From assembly GCF_014696345.1 (NCBI RefSeq), contig NZ_JACJPY010000027.1, forward strand, positions 1 to 52,059: 52,059 nt of DNA, written 5' to 3'. Source of the stretch: Pseudanabaena cinerea FACHB-1277. Lineage in GTDB: Bacteria > Cyanobacteriota > Cyanobacteriia > Pseudanabaenales > Pseudanabaenaceae. This document shows, one piece after another, positions 42,466-51,701 of this stretch; position 1 is the stretch's first letter; every line of letters starts with the position of its first letter. The position numbers and the translations under genes were made by a program. The notes below the pieces were generated by a model. That model was not told where the DNA came from and searched no databases. It saw only the letters and a program-made list of their open reading frames with translations.

Positions 42466-43176
42466 TCAAGATGGTCTTTGAAAAGCTGCCCCTCTTCTCG
42501 AACGCAAACGTTGCTCAAGATGTGGATCATTTTTGAGATTGATTGTTAAATGTTTATCGCGATCAACCAAAGGAAACTGAGTTTGCCAATTGCTAATGAT
42601 ATGAAAATAATTTTCGGCATCCTCCAAACAATATTCATATATTTCTTTCAAAACTGTTTGATATCCCTTTTCTTTACGAAGTATTTTAATGCCATTCCTA
42701 AAAACGTAATAACCTTTAATTTTTTTAAATATGGGAATCCCTAAATAGGCAAAAAGATTATTTAAGCCTTGATTTAGATCGTTGCGCTGACTTGTTTTCT
42801 GGAGATCGAGGATTCTAATACTATCAATTTTGGGACTAAATTCTAATGCTTCTATTCTTTGACGCAAACAGAACATATCACTGGTTGCCAAACCATAGCC
42901 AATAAAATATTTGCCTCGCAAGCTATGTAAATCATTTAATATATCTTGAATTATCTTCTTTTCTTGAGTACTAGATTCGATAAATTGAATTTTGATGTAT
43001 TGTTCATTACTGTCTTCTAAGATGCGCGTCAAAGTATAACCAAAAATCTTTTGTACGGAAACGTTTTTCTGAAAGTCGCGACACCACTCTAAGTCCAAGA
43101 ACACAAGATCATAAATGGAACCGTTGTAAAAATTATTAACATATTTATTGGGGATTTTAAGTTCCTGCTTATACAT
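42466..43176 (-). CDS. DEDDy-type 3-prime-5-prime exonuclease-like protein
   Basis: 236 residues with an RNase H fold: ExoI VFLDLEW (D28, E30), ExoII GYGLATSDMFCL (D100), ExoIII YCLED (Y182, D186) giving the Y-x3-D signature. Residues and spacing fit DEDDy exonucleases; the family name is uncertain. A basic C-terminal tail (LRSRRGAAFQR). AT-rich, HIP1-poor composition suggests an acquired gene. No obvious operon partner; it ends near the beta-helix gene. Confidence 0.65.
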   Translation of the reverse strand: MYKQELKIPNKYVNNFYNGSIYDLVFLDLEWCRDFQKNVSVQKIFGYTLTRILEDSNEQYIKIQFIESSTQEKKIIQDILNDLHSLRGKYFIGYGLATSDMFCLRQRIEALEFSPKIDSIRILDLQKTSQRNDLNQGLNNLFAYLGIPIFKKIKGYYVFRNGIKILRKEKGYQTVLKEIYEYCLEDAENYFHIISNWQTQFPLVDRDKHLTINLKNDPHLEQRLRSRRGAAFQRPS

Positions 43177-43449
43177 GGCTTTTATACATGGCTTTTATAG
43201 CCTATTGATGTTTTGAGCATTTCAGAAAAATTAAAAAAATCAGCGCGAAGCGCCACTTTTTAAAATTCTGCTGGCTTTTAAGTCAGCACAAAGCGCTGTA
43301 TATAGGTTTTAGCTTGATTTACGCTGGAAAATAAGTTTTTTTTGATAACGCTTTGCATATTAATACCTAAATTGTCACACATATTCTGACACTGCCAATT
43401 AGTTTATGCTCGTCTATCGATCGCTAGTTTAGCAAGCGGTTGTGAAAAG
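43177..43449. other. Repeat-containing intergenic spacer
   Basis: Contains members of the short palindrome family (AGCGCGAAGCGCC near 43242 and CAGCACAAAGCGCTG at 43284-43298) and AT-rich DNA. No gene seen. Confidence 0.5.
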
Positions 43450-44139
43450 TTAGACTTCAAAGTTAAAGCCTTTGTCCTTGAGTTGCAAATATTTAGTCTC
43501 ATCAAATTGGTATAGCTTTGCCGCCCGATGGGAGACATTATGCTGCACTTCACCCGTATCAAGCAGCAAATCCATACTTAATATTTTTTTACGAAAGTTC
43601 CGTTTGTCTAGCGATCTATTCCAGATAATCTCATAAAGTTTTTGTAACTGAGAAAGGGTGAAATTTCTAGGTAATAATTCAAACCCAATCGGTTCATAAC
43701 GGATTTTGCTCCTTAGTCGGGTGATCGCTGTTTGTAAGATCTGATCATGATCAAAGGCTAGTTTAGGAATTTTAGAAAGGGGAAACCAGTAAGCCTCACG
43801 CGCATCTGTAGAGGCTTGAACCTTTTGCTCAACCAAATTAATCAATGCGTAATAGGCAACGCTAACTACGCGATCGCGAGGGTCACGCCCCAAGTCCCCA
43901 AAAGTATATAGCTGCTCTAGGAAAACATTCTGTATCCCTGTTTCTTCTTGCAATTCCCGCAAAGCCGCTTGCTCTAGAGTCTCATCCATCCTCACAAATC
44001 CCCCAGGGATCGCCCATTCCCCTTCAAACGGAGGAATGTCGCGTTTAATTAGCATGATTTTAAGCTCTAGCTCCGCATCAAGTCCAAAAACAATGCAATC
44101 AACGGTGAGAGAGGGGCGGGGGTATTTGTAGGTGGGCAT
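43450..44139 (-). CDS. nrtR: NrtR-type Nudix transcriptional regulator
   Basis: 229 residues. A Nudix domain (1-145) has the complete box [19 protein letters not shown] followed by EETGI, and the C-terminus (about 150-229) is a winged helix ([25 protein letters not shown]) as in NrtR. NrtR represses NAD-metabolism genes and is released from DNA by ADP-ribose. The intact box means hydrolase activity cannot be excluded. It is divergent from the PP2C/ADP-ribosylglycohydrolase operon, and a palindromic operator lies in the shared promoter. Start ATG 44139. Confidence 0.9.
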
Positions 44140-44149
44140 TTGAGTATGG

Positions 44150-44285
44150 GTGTTAGCTTTTAGCTTTTGGCTTTTAGCATTTGGCTTTTAGCTTTTGGCT
44201 CTGGAGATTGGCAATTGTTTGAATTCGCGATTATTTCAACCTAACCAAAGCTAATCGCTAACAGCTAATCGCTAATAGCTAAAAA
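44150..44285. repeat. TTTAGC/GCTAA simple-repeat tract
   Basis: Many overlapping units of TAGCTTTTGGC and GCTAATCGCTAACAG type between nrtR and the promoter at 44292. A similar tract follows the PP2C gene at 45118-45270. Confidence 0.7.
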
Positions 44286-44291
44286 AGTTTA

Positions 44292-44320
44292 TTGACATAG
44301 TGTAAAAACAACACTATATT
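44292..44320 (+). promoter_or_regulatory. Sigma70-type promoter for the PP2C/ADP-ribosylglycohydrolase operon
   Basis: TTGACA at 44292-44297, a 17-base spacer, and TATATT at 44315-44320: nearly consensus. The start of translation is 30 bases downstream of the -10 box. The spacer is filled by an operator palindrome. Confidence 0.8.
44297..44317. promoter_or_regulatory. Candidate NrtR operator 1
   Basis: Perfect palindrome ATAGTGT-N7-ACACTAT (21 bases) occupying the -35 to -10 spacer. Binding would block RNA polymerase. The adjacent nrtR gene is the natural candidate regulator. Confidence 0.7.
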
Positions 44321-44322
44321 AG

Positions 44323-44343
44323 TTTGTGTGGTTTATACACTAT
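44323..44343. promoter_or_regulatory. Candidate NrtR operator 2
   Basis: TTTGTGT-N7-ACACTAT, sharing the exact right half and the N7 spacing with operator 1 but with a weaker left half. Centres are 26 bases apart. It sits just before the PP2C start codon. Confidence 0.55.
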
Positions 44344-44349
44344 ATCGCG

Positions 44350-45135
44350 ATGCAAGGACAAGTTGACTCTTTTGAATATGCCTTCGGCTCGATCATTGGG
44401 CGCAATCATGTTCTTGCTGGCAAAAACAATCAGGATGCGTATGGGATTATCTCTAACGAAAAATTCATGATTGCAGTGGTGTGCGATGGCTGCGGCAGTG
44501 GCAAACATAGTGAGGTCGGCGCAAAGTTAGGGGCGAGGCTGGTGGTTAATGCGATCGCCGATCTGCTTAATCAAAACTTAGCGATATCTGAAGCTGAATT
44601 TTGGAATACCGTCAAAATAAACTTATTGCAGAAGTTAAAGGATTTGGTAACTCTTATTGATAGCGACATGGAATTTGTGAATGACCACCTGTTATTTACA
44701 ATTGTCGGTACTGTAATTACAGATCTCGAAACAGTTACTTTCTCAATGGGTGATGGCGCGATCGCAATTAATGGCGAGCTTACCCAGATTCCCGCCTATC
44801 CCAACAATGCACCGCCCTATCTCGCCTATGGCTTATACAAACCCGATGCGATTGACTTTGAAATACGCGATCGCCTCCCCACCAGTGAATTAAAATCACT
44901 TCTCATCGCCACCGATGGCATTGATGATTTAATAAAAGTTGAAGACATCCATCAATTTTGGCAATCAGAACACTATTTCAGAAATTCCGATGCAATCCGC
45001 CGTAAGTTAGCCATGCTCAATCGGGAGGAAGTCAAACCTGATTGGAATAAACGAGAGTTAACTAGGCGATCGGGAGTGCTTTCTGATGATACGACTTTGG
45101 TAGTGATTAGAAAGCGGTTAGCGGTTAGCTGTTAG
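44350..45135 (+). CDS. PP2C-family protein phosphatase
   Basis: 261 residues from the ATG at 44350; an upstream GTG would start inside operator 2. PPM motifs: NNQDAYG, VVCDGCGSGKHSEVGA (metal-binding D), SMGDGAIAING, IATDGIDDL and DDTTLVVI. It removes phosphate from Ser/Thr using two metal ions; the likely partner is the atypical kinase three genes downstream. First gene of the operon controlled by the 44292 promoter. PP2C, kinase and vWA genes in one operon recall TerY-P triads. Confidence 0.9.
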   Translation: MQGQVDSFEYAFGSIIGRNHVLAGKNNQDAYGIISNEKFMIAVVCDGCGSGKHSEVGAKLGARLVVNAIADLLNQNLAISEAEFWNTVKINLLQKLKDLVTLIDSDMEFVNDHLLFTIVGTVITDLETVTFSMGDGAIAINGELTQIPAYPNNAPPYLAYGLYKPDAIDFEIRDRLPTSELKSLLIATDGIDDLIKVEDIHQFWQSEHYFRNSDAIRRKLAMLNREEVKPDWNKRELTRRSGVLSDDTTLVVIRKRLAVSC

Positions 45136-45270
45136 CTGTTAGCGATTAGCGGTTAGCAGTTAGCGATTAGCTTACTCCGAAAAAATCCCAATCACCAATT
45201 ACCAATTACCAAAAAAGCTAAAAGCTAATAGCTAATAGCTAATAGCCAATTACCAATTACCAAAAAAACT
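45118..45270. repeat. GTTAGC/AATTACC simple-repeat tract
   Basis: Runs of GGTTAGC, GATTAGC, CTAATAG and CCAATTACC-type units fill the gap between the PP2C stop and the first ADP-ribosylglycohydrolase start. Confidence 0.7.
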
Positions 45271-46044
45271 ATGTTAGGCGCAATTGTCGGCGATATCGTT
45301 GGTTCCATTTACGAGTTTAATAATCATCGCTCGAAAGACTTCCCTCTCTTTGGAAAAGGCTGTGATTTCACCGATGACACGGTGCTAACTGTCGCAGTTG
45401 CGGATTGCTTGATGAACAATGGCAACTATGCAGAATATATCAAAAACTATGCTCGTAAATATACAGGTCGAGGCTATGGTGGGCGTTTTGCTCAGTGGGT
45501 TGAGTCTGACAGTATGGAGCCATATAATAGCTGGGGTAATGGCTCGGCAATGCGGGTGAGTCCTGTCGGATTTTATTTTGATAACCTGCAAAGGGTTTCA
45601 TTTGAAGCCAAGCGATCGGCTGAAGTCACGCATAATCATCCCGAAGGTATCAAAGGAGCGCAGGCAACGGCTGCCGCGATTATTCTCGCTCGCAAGGGAC
45701 AGGACAAGGAATTGATTAAGACTCATATTTCCAAATTGTTTAACTATGATTTGAATCGCACCCTTGATGAAATCCGTCCTGTTTATCAATTTAATGAATC
45801 CTGTCAAGAAACTGTTCCCGAAGCAATTATCGCTTTTTTAGAATCAACGGATTTTGAAGATGCCATTCGCAATGCAATTTCTCTAGGTGGTGATAGCGAT
45901 ACACTCGCTTGCATCACGGGAGGTATTGCTGAAGCTTTTTATGGTGGTGTCCCCAAAGACATTGCCGCAAAAGCCTTGAGCTATCTCGATCCTGATCTGC
46001 GTGAAGTTGTCGAAGAATTTAGGGATTGGAGGAGTTTATGTTAG
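45271..46044 (+). CDS. ADP-ribosylglycohydrolase 1
   Basis: 257 residues of the DraG/ARH family: starts GAIVGDIVGSIYE, metal site TDDT in CDFTDDTVLT, the HNHPEGIKGAQA helix and the second metal site LGGDSDTLA. These enzymes cleave ADP-ribose from proteins or from small substrates. Nearly the same length and layout as the next gene, so a tandem duplicate. They overlap by 7 bases. Confidence 0.93.
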   Translation: MLGAIVGDIVGSIYEFNNHRSKDFPLFGKGCDFTDDTVLTVAVADCLMNNGNYAEYIKNYARKYTGRGYGGRFAQWVESDSMEPYNSWGNGSAMRVSPVGFYFDNLQRVSFEAKRSAEVTHNHPEGIKGAQATAAAIILARKGQDKELIKTHISKLFNYDLNRTLDEIRPVYQFNESCQETVPEAIIAFLESTDFEDAIRNAISLGGDSDTLACITGGIAEAFYGGVPKDIAAKALSYLDPDLREVVEEFRDWRSLC

Positions 46045-46811
46045 GCGCGATCGCTGGCGATATTATTGGCTCCATTTATGAAGTCATTCCCATGAAGCGG
46101 AAAGACTTTAAACTCTTCTCCTTTGGTAGTCATTTTAGTGATGATACGGTTCTCACCTATGCCGTAGCCAAATCTCTTCTCACGGGAACTAGCTATGCGA
46201 GTAACTTCAAAAAATGCTTTTGGCGCTATCCATTGGCAGGATTTGGACAGAGATTCACTTGCTGGGCAATGAGCGACCGCAAAGAAGGCTATAACAGTTG
46301 GGGTAACGGTGCGGCGATGCGAGTGAGTCCGATCGCATGGGCGTATGACCAGATCGAAGATGTTCTCAAGGAAGCCGAACGTTGCACCGCCACAACTCAC
46401 AATCATCCCGAAGGCATCAAGGGCGGACAGGCGACTGCGGCGGCGGTTTTCTTAGCGCGTCAAGGTAAGACTAAGCAAGAGATTCAAGCTTATATCGAGC
46501 AAACTTTCGCTTACGATTTACATCGCACTATTGACGAAATTCGCCTCAGTTATAAGTTTGAAGTTTCCTGTCAAAAAAGTGTGCCTGAAGCGATTATTGC
46601 TTTTTTAGAATCAACGGATTTTGAAGATGCGATTCGTAATGCGGTATCTCTTGGTGGTGATAGCGACACGATCGCTGCCATTACAGGCAGTATTGCTGAA
46701 GCCTTTTATGGTGGTGTTCCTGATGCGATCGCTGTTCAAGTATGGAAAAAACTAGATCGTCCTATTCGTCAGACTGTGACTGAGTTTAGAAGAGTTTATC
46801 AATTGCCTTAA
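46038..46811 (+). CDS. ADP-ribosylglycohydrolase 2
   Basis: 257 residues from the ATG at 46038, preceded by GGAGG (46027-46034 region) inside the upstream gene. DraG/ARH motifs: GAIAGDIIGSIYE, FSDDTVLT, THNHPEGIKGGQA, LGGDSDTIA. Long identical blocks with copy 1 (AIIAFLESTDFEDAIRNA). The start overlaps the preceding stop, so translation is coupled. The two copies may differ in substrate (middle region diverges: Y-G-G-R-F versus G-F-G-Q-R-F). Confidence 0.93.
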   Translation: MLGAIAGDIIGSIYEVIPMKRKDFKLFSFGSHFSDDTVLTYAVAKSLLTGTSYASNFKKCFWRYPLAGFGQRFTCWAMSDRKEGYNSWGNGAAMRVSPIAWAYDQIEDVLKEAERCTATTHNHPEGIKGGQATAAAVFLARQGKTKQEIQAYIEQTFAYDLHRTIDEIRLSYKFEVSCQKSVPEAIIAFLESTDFEDAIRNAVSLGGDSDTIAAITGSIAEAFYGGVPDAIAVQVWKKLDRPIRQTVTEFRRVYQLP

Positions 46812-46828: not shown

Positions 46829-48682
46829 ATGGATATCTATCTCAACCAAAAACGAATTAAAGTTAATCCTAAAAATGCGATCGGCAAGGGTGGCGAAGCG
46901 GATATCTATGATCTCAAAAATGGCAAGGTTCTCAAACTCTTTAAATCTGCGGATCATCCTGATTATCAGTTACTACCCCAAGAACAATTGGCGGCTAAAG
47001 CCAGAATTACTCTTCATCAGCAAAAGTTACCTGCTTTCCCGCAAAACTTACCTGCGAGGGTGATTAAACCTGAAACTTTAGCCACAGATAAACAGGGAAT
47101 GATCTTGGGCTATGCAATGCCCTTCTTGCAGAATACAGTGCCGCTTTTGAAATATAGCGATCGCAATTATCGCCAAACTAACGGCATCTCACAGCAATTT
47201 ATAACCGAATTATTTCGAGATCTCCATGAATCAGTCCTAAAAGTTCATCAAGCAAATGTGACGATTGGTGATTTTAATGATCTGAATTTATTAGTTTCGC
47301 AAAACCAAGTTCATCTCATTGATGCGGATTCCTTCCAGTTTGGACAGTTTCCCTGTCAGTTATTCACAGCAAGGTTTGTCGATCCGATATTGTGCGATCG
47401 CCAAGCAAATCAACCAATTCTCAATAGTCCTCATAATTCAAATTCTGATTGGTACGCCTTCACGGTAATGTTGATGCAGAGCCTCCTCTATGTCGATCCC
47501 TATGGCGGCGTATATAAGCCGAAATCCCAGACTGCCCAAATCCCTCACAGTGCTAGACCTTTGCAACGCATCACCATTTTTCATCCCGATGTGCGCTATC
47601 CGAAACCCGCAATCCCTTACAAGGTTCTATCCGATGATTTATTACATCATTTCCATAACTGCTTTGAAAAAGACTGGCGTGGCGATTTTCCTAAGCCTCT
47701 GCTCCAATCAATGCGCTGGACAAGGTGCAATCAATGTGGCATCGAACATTTACGGAATACTTGCCCAATTTGTACGCCTCTAATTGCATTTCCCTCCTCT
47801 ACCTCTGGGAGAGGGGCTGGGGGAGAGGGCTGTAAAGTTTTGCAGATTTTCCACACCGAAGGCGTAATTCTTCAAGTCGCTTTACAAAATAATTCCCTCA
47901 ATTATCTTTATCACGTTAATCACGAATTTAAGCGCGAAGATAACACAGTTTTATTATCTGGAGAACTCGATGCTCATATTCAATTCGCCATCTTTGGCAA
48001 GTCCACAATCGTTGCCAAACAAGGTAAAGCACTTACACTCAGTCAGGGACAACCGCAAGCGATCGCCGCCGATCTAATTCGTGCTAATTCCTTTTCTCGC
48101 TATTGGATTGACAATGGGCAACTACTTCGCGATGGCAAGCTAGGCAATGAATATATTGGTGACATTCTCGAAGGACAAACACAATTTTGGGTTGGTGAGG
48201 CTTTCGGCTTTGGCTTCTATCGGGCAGGGGCGATCAGTGTGGCTTTCACCTTTGACGCGAAGCGTTCAGGAATAGGCGATCGCGTAAAGATTCCACCCAT
48301 TCAAGGAGAACTAATCGATGCAAACTGTCTATTTAGCAACGACATTTGCTGGTTCTTCACTATCACCCAAGAGCAAGGCAATATCATTCATCGAGTTTCC
48401 GTATTGCGTCCCACAGGTGAGTTAGTTGCCACGATTACCGCACCTAAAGGCGATCTTGCTTGGTTAACAAATATTCATGGTGGCAGTGCGATCGCTAATT
48501 GGCTATTCGTTCCCACTGATGAAGGCATTGCGAGAGTGGAGGTAAACAATGGACAAATCATGATTACAAAGACTTTCCCCGAAACTGAACCCTATGTCGA
48601 TAGCGGCTGTTCCCTGATAGTCGGCTCACAAGGTATCTATGTGATTCACTCACAAAAGATTTTGCAGTTACAATTAGCTTAG
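46829..48682 (+). CDS. Atypical kinase-fold protein with zinc ribbon and propeller-like C-terminus
   Basis: 617 residues. Kinase-like region (about 15-290): glycine loop AIGKGGEADIY, Lys in VLKLFK, catalytic loop VTIGDFNDLNLLV (D148, N153, HRD replaced), and DFG replaced by LIDADSF (D165). Key acidic residues are kept, so activity is plausible. A zinc ribbon follows (C300/C303, C312/C315), then an insertion encoded by a dispersed repeat (about 322-335), and a C-terminal strand-rich region of about 270 residues, possibly a beta-propeller. This catalytic-loop variant is known from TerY-P kinases. It follows the ADP-ribosylglycohydrolases by 17 bases. Confidence 0.8.
   Translation: MDIYLNQKRIKVNPKNAIGKGGEADIYDLKNGKVLKLFKSADHPDYQLLPQEQLAAKARITLHQQKLPAFPQNLPARVIKPETLATDKQGMILGYAMPFLQNTVPLLKYSDRNYRQTNGISQQFITELFRDLHESVLKVHQANVTIGDFNDLNLLVSQNQVHLIDADSFQFGQFPCQLFTARFVDPILCDRQANQPILNSPHNSNSDWYAFTVMLMQSLLYVDPYGGVYKPKSQTAQIPHSARPLQRITIFHPDVRYPKPAIPYKVLSDDLLHHFHNCFEKDWRGDFPKPLLQSMRWTRCNQCGIEHLRNTCPICTPLIAFPSSTSGRGAGGEGCKVLQIFHTEGVILQVALQNNSLNYLYHVNHEFKREDNTVLLSGELDAHIQFAIFGKSTIVAKQGKALTLSQGQPQAIAADLIRANSFSRYWIDNGQLLRDGKLGNEYIGDILEGQTQFWVGEAFGFGFYRAGAISVAFTFDAKRSGIGDRVKIPPIQGELIDANCLFSNDICWFFTITQEQGNIIHRVSVLRPTGELVATITAPKGDLAWLTNIHGGSAIANWLFVPTDEGIARVEVNNGQIMITKTFPETEPYVDSGCSLIVGSQGIYVIHSQKILQLQLA
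47792..47829 (+). repeat. GC-rich dispersed repeat inside the kinase gene
   Basis: CTCTGGGAGAGGGGCTGGG followed by GGAGAGGG, of the type usually found between genes in cyanobacteria. Here it stays in frame and encodes SSTSGRGAGGEG just after the zinc ribbon. Confidence 0.65.
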
Positions 48683-48700: not shown

Positions 48701-48994
48701 ATGCAAACAATTCAACTGAGCTTAGATGAAGAGATGATTCGTAATCTTAATCAGCTTTCTTCGCAGCAACAAACTACACCTGAAGAGCTAATCAAGCAAT
48801 TCATTATCGATCGCTTGCAACAACCCACTAAACCTAAAACAGTTATGGAAAAGTTGCAGGAAGCAGAAAGACGGCGTGGTGAGCCTCGACATTTTTTGCA
48901 AGGGCGATCTGATCTATCGGATCGAGATGTGAGAAAGGCAATTATTGCTCAAAGAATGCAAGAAAAGTATCAAAGGATTCAGGATCAACTATGA
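48701..48994 (+). CDS. Ribbon-helix-helix-like antitoxin
   Basis: 97 residues. The N-terminus QTIQLSLDEEMIRNLNQLS fits a ribbon-helix-helix DNA-binding fold, and the acidic/basic helical tail (VMEKLQEAERRRGEPRHFLQ) is the usual toxin-neutralising part. GGAG lies about 8 bases upstream. The stop overlaps the PIN toxin start by 4 bases. Confidence 0.75.
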   Translation: MQTIQLSLDEEMIRNLNQLSSQQQTTPEELIKQFIIDRLQQPTKPKTVMEKLQEAERRRGEPRHFLQGRSDLSDRDVRKAIIAQRMQEKYQRIQDQL

Positions 48995-49407
48995 ATCACC
49001 CTTCTATTCTTATTGATAGTTGTGCCTTGGTTGCTTACTACAGTGAGCAAGATGTTTATCACGATATCATGTGTAGATTTCTTGCTGAATGTACCAGTGA
49101 ACTGATCACCACCACAAGCTGTATCACAGAGACCATGTGGCTACTCGATTATGACTATCGCGTTCAAAATGAGTTTTTGGATGAAGTTCTAGATGGAGTG
49201 TATATTCACGAAACCTTGACCAATAATGATTTACGACGAATTATTGAATTGAACAAGAAATATGCCGATCACATGGCTGACTTTGCCGATTTATCACTAG
49301 TTGCTATTTCTGAACGCTTAGATATTCCTGCGATCGCTACTTTCGACAAAGATTTTCAAGTATATCGCCGATATCGCAATCAACCATTTACAAACGTTCT
49401 TGATTAA
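48991..49407 (+). CDS. PIN-domain toxin (VapC-like)
   Basis: 138 residues, full-length PIN ribonuclease: ILIDSCALVAYY (D9), TSCITETMWLL (E47), ADFADLSLVAIS and IATFDKDF. All acidic residues of the active site appear present, unlike the broken PIN gene at 13628. Coupled to the upstream antitoxin. The pair sits between the kinase and the nicotinamidase-like gene and keeps the operon direction, so it may be transcribed with it. Confidence 0.88.
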   Translation: MNHPSILIDSCALVAYYSEQDVYHDIMCRFLAECTSELITTTSCITETMWLLDYDYRVQNEFLDEVLDGVYIHETLTNNDLRRIIELNKKYADHMADFADLSLVAISERLDIPAIATFDKDFQVYRRYRNQPFTNVLD

Positions 49408-49433: not shown

Positions 49434-50486
49434 ATGACTACTCAAATTGTTACTCAACTTCCCATTCCCGCATTTTTCGATCGCCACAAAGTCGGATCGG
49501 TATGGCGTGTTCCCTATCAAGATCGGGCTAACCAAGCTGGATCTTGGGCGAAACAACATGGCATCACCCCTGCGGCAAAGGATCGTAAGAAAATTTGTTT
49601 GATGGCGATCGATGTGCAGAATACATTTTGTATTGCCGATCATGAGCTATTTGTCGGTGGACGCTCTGGTACTGGGGCGATCGAAGATAATGTGCGCTTG
49701 TGCGAATTTATCTATCGCAATCTGCACCACATCAGCGAAATTGCGCCCACAATGGACACCCACACCGCCATGCAAATATTCCATCCAATCTTTTGGATAA
49801 ACGATGCGGGTGAACATCCCATTCCCAATGCCACATCGATTACTCTAGAAGATGTACAGCAAGGCAAGTGGAAAGTAAATCCTGCGATCGCCTATAGTCT
49901 CGCCAAAGGCAACTATATGGCAATTCAGCGCCACGCCTTGCATTATGTCCAGAAACTCAACACCGAAGGCAAATTTCCCCTCACGGTTTGGGCTTATCAC
50001 TCCATGCTCGGCGGCATCGGTCACGCCCTAGTTTCTTCAGTCGAAGAAGCAATGTTCTTTCACAATATTGCGCGGCATAGCCAGACAAACTTTGAGATTA
50101 AAGGCGGTAATCCTCTCACTGAAAACTATTCCGTATTGCGACCTGAAGTGATGGATGGCGCTGATGGCAGACCGATCGCCCAGAAAAATACACGCTTTTT
50201 GCAAAGGTTACTGGAATTTGATGCCGTAATCATTGCAGGTCAAGCTAAGAGCCATTGTGTTGCATGGACAATTCAAGACCTGCTCAGCGAAATCCTTGCC
50301 CACGATCCCAAATTGGCGAAGAAAGTCTATCTGCTCGAAGATTGCACTTCGCCTGTGGTCGTTCCCAATATCGTGGACTATACGGATCAAGCCGACGCTG
50401 CGTTTAGGCGTTTTGCGGATGCTGGTATGCACTTGGTCAAATCCACTGATGCAATGGAAACTTGGGTAGATCTCAATCTTGCTTAA
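49434..50486 (+). CDS. Nicotinamidase-like cysteine hydrolase (isochorismatase fold), enlarged
   Basis: 350 residues, about 140 longer than ordinary nicotinamidases. Catalytic Asp in LMAIDVQNTF (D60), nucleophile in AKSHCVAWT (C275), metal-type residues DTHTAMQIFH (D108, H110, H117), candidate Lys K223 in EIKGG. It should hydrolyse nicotinamide or a related amide, making nicotinate for NAD resynthesis. Extra sequence around residues 120-220 (TVWAYHSMLGGIGHALVSS) is unlike short enzymes. GGAG lies 10 bases upstream. Its place in an operon with ADP-ribosylglycohydrolases supports an NAD role. Confidence 0.85.
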   Translation: MTTQIVTQLPIPAFFDRHKVGSVWRVPYQDRANQAGSWAKQHGITPAAKDRKKICLMAIDVQNTFCIADHELFVGGRSGTGAIEDNVRLCEFIYRNLHHISEIAPTMDTHTAMQIFHPIFWINDAGEHPIPNATSITLEDVQQGKWKVNPAIAYSLAKGNYMAIQRHALHYVQKLNTEGKFPLTVWAYHSMLGGIGHALVSSVEEAMFFHNIARHSQTNFEIKGGNPLTENYSVLRPEVMDGADGRPIAQKNTRFLQRLLEFDAVIIAGQAKSHCVAWTIQDLLSEILAHDPKLAKKVYLLEDCTSPVVVPNIVDYTDQADAAFRRFADAGMHLVKSTDAMETWVDLNLA

Positions 50487-50881: not shown

Positions 50882-50927
50882 CTACAGATCAAACGGATCG
50901 AATCCATATCACCAATCATCAAATAAA

Positions 50928-51701
50928 ATGACAAACATTAACGATCTCTTCCAATCTGCACTAGATGATGGAACCCTTTCCAATGAATCTTTGCAAGCAC
51001 TGACTGTTTATGACCTCGGCGCACAAATCCAAGCAGGGCTTGGCATTCATGTTGATGACGTGATGTCCAGTGAAGTCGTGCTAGTGACAGTTATGCCCGA
51101 TGACTCTGGCTCGATCCAGTACTCAGGCAATGCCCAAGCAGTACGCGGCGGACATAACTCCGTAATTGATGCTTTAGCATCTTCTCAACAACAGGATAAT
51201 ATTCTCATTCACAATCGCTATTTGAATGGAAATATTCTTTATCCCTACTGCCCGATCGCCCAAGCAATTAGGATGGATACCAAAAACTACAACCCAAATC
51301 AAGGTACACCTCTCTATGATCAAACGGTGGTGCTATTGGGAACGGTATTAGCCAAGTCGCAGGAATTCTCGGATAATGGCGTACCAGTTCGCACCGTGAC
51401 TCTGATTATTACTGATGGTGATGATTGTCATTCCACGCGCCATACTGCTAAAGATGTAGCAGCGATCGCCCATGATATGCTGCGGATGGAAAATCATGTG
51501 ATAGCAGCGATGGGTATTGATGATGGCTCTACTAATTTTCGTCAAGTCTTTAAAGATATGGGCATCCGTGATGAATGGATTCTCACACCTGCCAATAGCG
51601 ATGGCGAAATCCGTAAGGCTTTTCAGGTGTTCTCGCAGTCGGCAATGCGAGCTAGTCAGAGTGCAGCTAACTTTAATTCTTTAGGAGGATTTGGTGGTTG
51701 A
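50928..51701 (+). CDS. von Willebrand factor A domain protein
   Basis: 257 residues from the ATG at 50928; earlier in-frame starts fall inside a palindromic repeat. The MIDAS metal site is intact: DDSGSIQ (D-x-S-x-S), the Thr in QGTPLYDQ, and Asp in IITDGDDC. C-terminal low-complexity tail SAANFNSLGGFGG. TerY-like vWA proteins act with PP2C and kinase partners in the known triads, and all three are in this operon. Two repeat elements separate it from the nicotinamidase gene, so it could be transcribed separately. Confidence 0.87.
   Translation: MTNINDLFQSALDDGTLSNESLQALTVYDLGAQIQAGLGIHVDDVMSSEVVLVTVMPDDSGSIQYSGNAQAVRGGHNSVIDALASSQQQDNILIHNRYLNGNILYPYCPIAQAIRMDTKNYNPNQGTPLYDQTVVLLGTVLAKSQEFSDNGVPVRTVTLIITDGDDCHSTRHTAKDVAAIAHDMLRMENHVIAAMGIDDGSTNFRQVFKDMGIRDEWILTPANSDGEIRKAFQVFSQSAMRASQSAANFNSLGGFGG

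Follow-up and report, generated by a model that had tools for sequence, protein, structure and literature searches.

The window, the whole stretch of 52,059 nucleotides analysed here from Pseudanabaena cinerea FACHB-1277, carries on its minus strand a gene for a Nudix-sensor and winged-helix regulator of 229 amino acids, named nrtR-A (43450..44139), and, divergent from it on the plus strand, a series of genes that runs toward the end of the contig. The series opens with a PP2C-type protein phosphatase gene (44350..45135, start codon ATG at 44350) and continues with genes for two ADP-ribosylglycohydrolases (45271..46044 and 46038..46811), a YegI-like protein kinase (46829..48682), a ribbon-helix-helix protein (48701..48994), a small protein that looks PIN-like by eye (48991..49407), a nicotinamidase-fold cysteine amidohydrolase termed ISO (49434..50486) and a vWA-domain protein (50925..51701), the last before the contig end, which lies 358 bp beyond. 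Their order and spacing suggest that these genes form one transcript. AT-rich repeats, TTAGC/AGCTTTT-like by eye, occupy 44144-44282 between nrtR-A and the operators, where relatives carry other sequence, and also 45108-45260 between the PP2C and the first glycohydrolase gene. An RNase H-like gene (42466-43176, PF13482) has its start codon spanned by a 13-bp tandem duplication, TATACATGGCTTT, at 43170-43195.

The DNA upstream of the PP2C gene contains, on the plus strand, a -35 hexamer TTGACA (44292-44297), a 17-nt spacer (44298-44314) and a -10 hexamer TATATT (44315-44320), read from the sequence and found in a sigma-70 scan. This promoter agrees with the sigma-70 consensus at 11 of 12 positions and is the sole match in 44100-44400, where shuffled sequences give 0.5; the near-consensus TTGACA-17-TATATT promoter of the original prediction is thus borne out. 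Two putative operators accompany it. O1, ATAGTGT-N7-ACACTAT (44297-44317, plus strand), sits between the hexamers, with the -35 flush against it, and O2, TTTGTGT-N7-ACACTAT (44323-44343, plus strand), covers the presumed transcription start. The palindrome had been said to fill the promoter spacer exactly, which is nearly the case: O1 lies in the spacer and extends over the final base of the -35 and the opening three bases of the -10. The second site reads as it had been described, with the same N7 spacing, one exact half (the right one) and a centre 26 bp from that of O1.

NrtR-A belongs to the NrtR family in the broad sense, with matches over cut-off to the Pfam NUDIX domain (PF00293, 75.2 bits) and to NrtR_WHD (PF21906, 99.5 bits), as expected for the NrtR-type product that the divergent neighbour had been taken to encode. 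AraR_C also matches in Pfam, and a PDB profile search ranked the arabinose regulator BtAraR (5bs6, 235.7 bits) before SoNrtR (3gz5, 145.5 bits). The score against the NCBI equivalog NF050029, an ADP-ribose-responsive repressor, was 174.9 bits, below the cut-off of 400, and PADLOC returned a weak match of residues 27-129 to the candidate-defence model PDC-S07 (1.7e-7). NrtR-A has in common with the NAD-type NrtRs (SoNrtR, Synechocystis NrtR, MsNrtR) the Nudix and NrtR-type winged-helix domains and, for its putative sites, a palindromic N7 operator next to the regulator gene, described with 8-bp arms in the case of MsNrtR (PMC6800001). It differs from them in its GTGT-type half-site and in a presumed target that, in this genome, is not NAD biosynthesis. 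Moreover, the Nudix signature is described as impaired in NAD-type NrtRs (PMC4666351) and MsNrtR as devoid of ADP-ribose hydrolase activity (PMC6800001), whereas NrtR-A keeps the signature intact, GX5EX7REUXEEXGU being complete in 36/36 cyanobacterial NrtR-A proteins.

The DNA-binding residues point to the AraR-like operator. According to the description of the BtAraR-DNA complex, GTGT is defined by K179, R180, N181 and K184 of the recognition helix and by the wing residues K204 and R205, and the bound duplex reads AGTGT-N7-ACAC (PMC4666351). The corresponding helix of NrtR-A, D178-K179-R180-N181-F182-R183-K184, is the same as in BtAraR, and R205 is kept; in the wing, K204 of BtAraR is replaced by H204. 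This helix, H204 and R205 are invariant in 10 aligned orthologs. In the genome G046, K184 is changed to N (KRNFRN for KRNFRK) and the sites are still present. Apart from the wing, BtAraR differs from NrtR-A in its pocket residues and in the Nudix signature, which is lost in AraR and intact in NrtR-A. Tandem sites have been described at an AraR-controlled promoter as well (PMC4666351).

The first product of the operon contains PF13672 and is weakly related to E. coli PphC (35 bits, E 4e-6 in a five-sequence search). It possesses CDGCG, GDGA, TDGI and DDTT, the metal motifs of PP2C phosphatases. The two glycohydrolases, both with PF03747 and 60% identical to each other, carry the usual metal motifs, TDDT and GGDSDT in the first and SDDT and GGDSDT in the second. 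The kinase, whose Pfam Pkinase match is below cut-off, is 27% identical to the kinase region of E. coli YegI (57 bits, E 3e-12, five-sequence search), and its segments GKGGEAD, GDFNDLN and DADSF, as well as the zinc ribbon-like cysteines CxxC...CxxC, are conserved in 12 aligned sequences. PADLOC gave weak matches of PP2C to PDC-M21C (9e-5) and of the kinase to MkoA (0.001). In one related locus (L052, genome G039), the kinase frame holds a stop, and ORFs of 462 and 144 amino acids are seen. The accessory, antitoxin-like ribbon-helix-helix protein (PF01402 below cut-off) and the toxin-like PIN-like protein, which has no Pfam family over cut-off, form a pair at 48701-49407 between the kinase and ISO that is found in the loci L065 and L067 and is absent from L062.

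ISO has a long chain of 350 amino acids, with no meaningful sequence match in Pfam (isochorismatase included) or in the PDB, whereas a fold search with its AlphaFold model (pLDDT 83) did match: the top Foldseek hits are nicotinamidases (2wta, E 1.4e-7, TM-score 0.42 by query and 0.64 by target length). The residues D60, D108xH110, K223 and C275 are invariant in 16 aligned sequences; in the nicotinamidase fold, such residues make up the D-K-C triad and the DxH metal site. The predicted model and these invariant residues place ISO in the isochorismatase/nicotinamidase fold, and it is perhaps a nicotinamidase-like enzyme with nicotinamide as candidate substrate. The vWA protein, with a MIDAS-like DDSGS motif, has no Pfam family over cut-off; the top Foldseek matches of its AlphaFold model, which is of moderate confidence (pLDDT 70.5), are mostly vWA and integrin I domains.

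Among 16 loci examined, ISO occurs in 15, PP2C in 13, the kinase in 12 and vWA in 11. The glycohydrolases and the ribbon-helix-helix/PIN-like pair vary, and PP2C, the kinase and vWA vary in a few loci. In G024 and G044, only a glycohydrolase and ISO lie beside nrtR-A, and the sites occupy the equivalent place in the promoter. With its presence in 15/16 loci and its retention in these two genomes, ISO is the most constant partner. It is 94-97% identical in 20 of the 25 other same-genus genomes; the match in G028 contains one TAG. Eight genomes that lack NrtR-A (G006, G010, G031, G036, G038, G053, G056 and G057) also carry ISO, and the stretches fetched from them show no PP2C, kinase, glycohydrolase or vWA match beside it, so that the enzyme also exists outside the operon.

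The comparison set comprised 58 related genomes, 36 of which have an NrtR-A ortholog (identity at least 63%); being related, these genomes do not give independent counts. In all 23 same-genus genomes with NrtR-A, the window included, nrtR-A is preceded by both sites. In the 22 same-genus loci that align without gaps (window included), all 24 arm positions, which comprise the core arms of O1 and those of O2 (TTGTGT/ACACTA), and all six positions of TTGACA are invariant; among the spacer positions 7 of 14 are, and of the 40 positions immediately upstream none. Conservation as such continues beyond the arms, since 11 of the first 14 coding bases are kept as well. Across the set, the DNA upstream of the target contains a site with at most two mismatches in 35/35 readable NrtR-A genomes, G037, whose contig begins inside the PP2C gene, being left uncounted; TTGAC[A/T] directly abuts the first site in all of these but G043, which has CTGACT (34/35). 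Tandem sites at this threshold are found in 32/35; G028, G043 and G044 have a single one, with an additional site at three mismatches in G044. The spacing from O1 to O2 ranges from 23 to 37 bp between loci, and because of this variation two dimers probably bind independently, a spacing of this kind not implying cooperative binding. The distance between nrtR and the operators is 29 to 192 bp among loci where both are adjacent.

Three genomes in which nrtR-A and its presumed target are apart show that the sites follow the target, not the regulator gene. In G049, nrtR-A is 2.5 kb from the operon and tandem sites directly precede PP2C; in G040, it is 0.8 kb apart, with a site pair each in front of PP2C and of the kinase gene; in G029, it is about 2 Mb away and two exact sites precede PP2C. 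General autoregulation of nrtR-A is unsupported, the gene having no site close upstream in G049 and G040; G029 has a weaker pair (one and two mismatches) before nrtR itself. In G043, the ISO match is preceded, at 63 bp, by an exact site. Ten genomes have ISO without NrtR-A, and a site precedes ISO in one of them (G051), with two-mismatch matches at 2.1 kb (G006) and 3.7 kb (G005) upstream scored as off target; the assemblies of G005 and G051 have a completeness of 82% and 88%, and the absence of NrtR-A there may be an assembly gap. In G041, nrtR-A is broken (L061, two pieces, the frame ending at 195 amino acids), yet both operators remain. Because sites and regulator co-occur and the recognition helix matches that of BtAraR, control of the promoter by the adjacent NrtR-A is strongly supported at the level of sequence comparison.

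The genome encodes a second NrtR-family protein, NrtR-B, on the contig C108, where its gene is preceded by nadD (named by eye). Seventeen NrtR-B loci were compared, nine from the genus (window genome included) and eight from other cyanobacteria; with gene names taken from conserved motifs, nadD is found in 15, pncB in eight and nadE in five. In all 15 readable sequences (L161 and L162 excluded), the helix reads DYSNFR, not DKRNFR, and in none of them is the Nudix signature intact. An anchor gene (pncB, nadD or nadE) was identified in 16 of the 17 loci, and none of these anchors has a site with 0-1 mismatches; in the locus of the window genome (L048), nadD alone was scanned and has no site. The original prediction had proposed a search near NAD genes for further copies of TAGTGT-N7-ACACTA; the sole exact copy in this genome is at the promoter in the window, and no NAD regulon of NrtR-A was found in this genome. 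As judged from these neighbourhoods, the operon is not one of standard NAD biosynthesis, and the NAD genes go with NrtR-B; the operon would belong to NAD salvage, should ISO be a nicotinamidase. A possible NrtR-B motif, TTATAGT-N7-ACTATAA, was seen near pncB in four loci and is a lead only. In L160 (G042), the pncB-nadD gap, about 0.8-0.9 kb upstream of nrtR-B, holds a tandem repeat of 14-bp period resembling TGTGACAACCGTGC.

The same motif was sought in 79 loci (L069-L147) drawn from the best 80 relatives listed, which belong to other phyla and to two non-photosynthetic relatives of cyanobacteria, L124 and L146 (Vampirovibrio and Gastranaerophilales); as the search patterns included the helix LDKRNFRK, this set leans to the NrtR-A type. 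In 15 of these 79 loci, the 350 bp upstream of the regulator gene contain a site with no more than one mismatch, an exact one in four of them; in the other 64 loci they contain none. Of 59 permuted palindromes, no more than one equalled the motif in the 15 loci. Eight of the 15, chosen by eye as NAD-like, had their neighbours tested with Pfam: nadA is beside the regulator in five, and single loci have a nicotinate phosphoribosyltransferase gene (pncB), a NAPRTase/NAMPT-family gene with a phosphoribosyltransferase-domain gene, and an isochorismatase-family gene. Judging from these neighbours, NAD-linked regulators of some other groups use an operator of this kind. The Nudix signature is intact in 48 of 78 readable relatives of the best-80 set (L126 excluded), including regulators beside nadA, and its intactness is thus not peculiar to cyanobacteria. 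In Archangium (L070), PP2C, kinase, ISO and vWA genes lie downstream of NrtR, with one site at two mismatches.

Several other explanations of the site pair were weighed. The exact core TAGTGT-N7-ACACTA has a probability of 9.3e-8 at one given position, and for a further site within 60 bp, one mismatch being allowed, the probability is 2e-4. Even so, composition alone predicts 0.44 exact copies per genome, and one was found in the 4.77-Mb genome; the window searched at two mismatches yields two matches, where shuffles average 1.12 and reach at least two in 30/100. Nor is the motif enriched genome-wide (76 matches at up to two mismatches, 270 for a reversed control); two other one-mismatch copies lie inside reading frames, and no further 0-1 mismatch copy exists outside them. 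Over the 58 genomes, exact copies number 34, against 19 for the reversed control pattern. A palindrome in a single genome thus proves little, and the pair, originally offered as strong sequence evidence, was insufficient without the genome comparison; conservation carries the weight. The telling feature of the exact copies is their location, not their number: in NrtR-A genomes, they are at the operon target in 32/32 cases, and the only two elsewhere are in G010 and G036, both without NrtR-A. Together with the invariance of the 24 arm positions across 22 loci, this contradicts an origin by chance or composition, which we reject as having a negligible probability. It is also highly improbable that O1 and O2 are bound chiefly by NrtR-B or by an unrelated regulator, NrtR-A being a mere neighbour. 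Two NrtR-family proteins are indeed encoded in the genome, and NrtR sites are described as varying among lineages (PMC4666351); against this stand the DYSNFR helix of NrtR-B and the lack of sites at its 16 anchored loci. Furthermore, ISO has no site in nine of the ten NrtR-A-less genomes, all of which hold a near full-length NrtR-B-type match of 39-45% identity, and control of the promoter by NrtR-B is unlikely on these grounds. Activation of the operon by NrtR-A, or tuning by a roadblock rather than silencing, would fit a -35 flush with the first site in 34/35 loci, and activators of the MerR type bind between the -35 and the -10 at some promoters. We find such a role very unlikely: the spacer has the standard 17 bp and the promoter is near-consensus (11/12), so no activator is needed, and the characterised NrtRs are described as repressors (PMC4666351). 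Repression is preferred because the sites overlap the -35, the -10 and the presumed start.

The nature of the ligand leaves more room for doubt. NrtR-A might sense a sugar, NAD or another metabolite instead of ADP-ribose, in which case the operator assignment would stand. The ranking of BtAraR above SoNrtR among solved structures and the AraR_C match speak for this, and NdnR of Corynebacterium, of the same family, is described as responding to NAD (PMC4666351). However, the residues that close the pocket in BtAraR, G89, F36 and L67, correspond to R88, I35 and E66 in NrtR-A, which makes arabinose sensing less likely and favours ADP-ribose, as these residues fill the nucleotide space in BtAraR; the operon includes ADP-ribosylglycohydrolases and a nicotinamidase-fold enzyme, and the motif accompanies NAD genes in some other groups. 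A ligand other than ADP-ribose is therefore unlikely in our estimation. Of four ADP-ribose contacts of SoNrtR that were compared (Y10 and F15 being outside the comparison), R41 and R98 are matched by R33 and R88 of NrtR-A, and N43 and K76 are not conserved, I35 and E66 taking their places. E66 is one of the glutamates in the Nudix signature, in keeping with an active enzyme more than with a pure sensor, and NrtR-A may hydrolyse its own inducer. ADP-ribose is the most likely ligand of NrtR-A on these comparisons.

Taken as a whole, a model in which NrtR-A bound to O1 and O2 represses the operon and ADP-ribose relieves the repression appears to us highly likely. The original prediction of repression by NrtR is well founded as regards control by the adjacent protein, given the co-occurrence and the recognition-helix match; the sign of that control, repression and not activation, is what we infer. 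In this model, NrtR-A dimers would bind the tandem sites, the one at O1 covering the gap between -35 and -10 and the one at O2 covering the transcription start, and RNA polymerase would be excluded, keeping the operon from PP2C through the glycohydrolases, kinase and ISO to vWA off by default. Whenever NAD cleavage or de-ADP-ribosylation raised the level of ADP-ribose or of a close derivative, this ligand would occupy the Nudix domain, shift the winged helices and turn the operon on. The glycohydrolases would then release further ADP-ribose, a positive feedback. The intact Nudix site of NrtR-A may slowly destroy the ligand and reset the switch. The role of the operon would be to reverse ADP-ribosylation and salvage nicotinamide. 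The site pair and NrtR-A very probably form an on/off switch, which is perhaps tied to NAD breakdown products. The fullest version is tentative and, as it stands, somewhat improbable: a self-resetting switch in which NrtR-A is at once an ADP-ribose-sensing repressor and an active hydrolase, set over a system of de-ADP-ribosylation, nicotinamide salvage and signalling by a dedicated module of kinase, phosphatase and vWA protein, perhaps for defence against foreign ADP-ribosyltransferases.

The cluster resembles the predicted ADP-ribosylglycohydrolase (ARG) operons presented in PMC9503650, which combine a negative regulator of the Nudix-HTH or WYL-HTH type with a phosphatase and, in many cases, a vWA or other chaperone; it likewise has ARG, a Nudix-HTH regulator, a phosphatase and vWA. 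As set out there, these operons are predicted to be off by default, induced by ADP-ribose and engaged in undoing viral ADP-ribosylation, and the coupled phosphatase, present in a little over 55% of ARG neighbourhoods, is not obligatory (PMC9503650). The phosphatases named in that account are of the rhodanese-type, calcineurin-like, HD and HAD kinds, whereas the window cluster has a PP2C, and it adds a YegI-like kinase and a nicotinamidase-fold enzyme to the plan. Section 3.8 of the same paper gives no operator and does not name cyanobacteria among the lineages. As with the ARG genes of that account, which have no linked ADP-ribosyltransferase, no ADP-ribosyltransferase or sirtuin is found by Pfam among the nine cluster proteins, the contig ending after vWA. 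Going by the identities of ISO, the core of the cluster looks conserved rather than fast-evolving as described for ARG systems; the glycohydrolases and some other modules do vary. The kinase, phosphatase and vWA trio is also that of YegI-PphC-YegL in E. coli K-12, to which the kinase and PP2C are related in sequence by the five-sequence search; in that search, YegL gave no significant match to the vWA protein, and the annotation of the 14-kb E. coli stretch lists no NrtR, glycohydrolase or nicotinamidase-like gene. In actinobacterial systems, PP2C and vWA are likewise described as a trio with a kinase that frequently has a zinc ribbon (PMC7159879).

In a literature search, we found no operator described for regulators of ADP-ribosylglycohydrolase operons and no recognisable description of this operator or of the cyanobacterial operon; the founding NrtR paper, Rodionov et al. 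2008, was beyond that search and may already list parts of the regulon. The site pair provides a concrete predicted operator for a regulator type so far predicted to control ADP-ribosylglycohydrolase operons. The two NrtR paralogs appear to divide the work, NrtR-B, with an impaired Nudix box, standing beside NAD genes, and NrtR-A, with an intact one, on an operon of phosphosignalling and ADP-ribose enzymes. Should NrtR-A indeed consume its inducer, the control circuit would be an unusual one.
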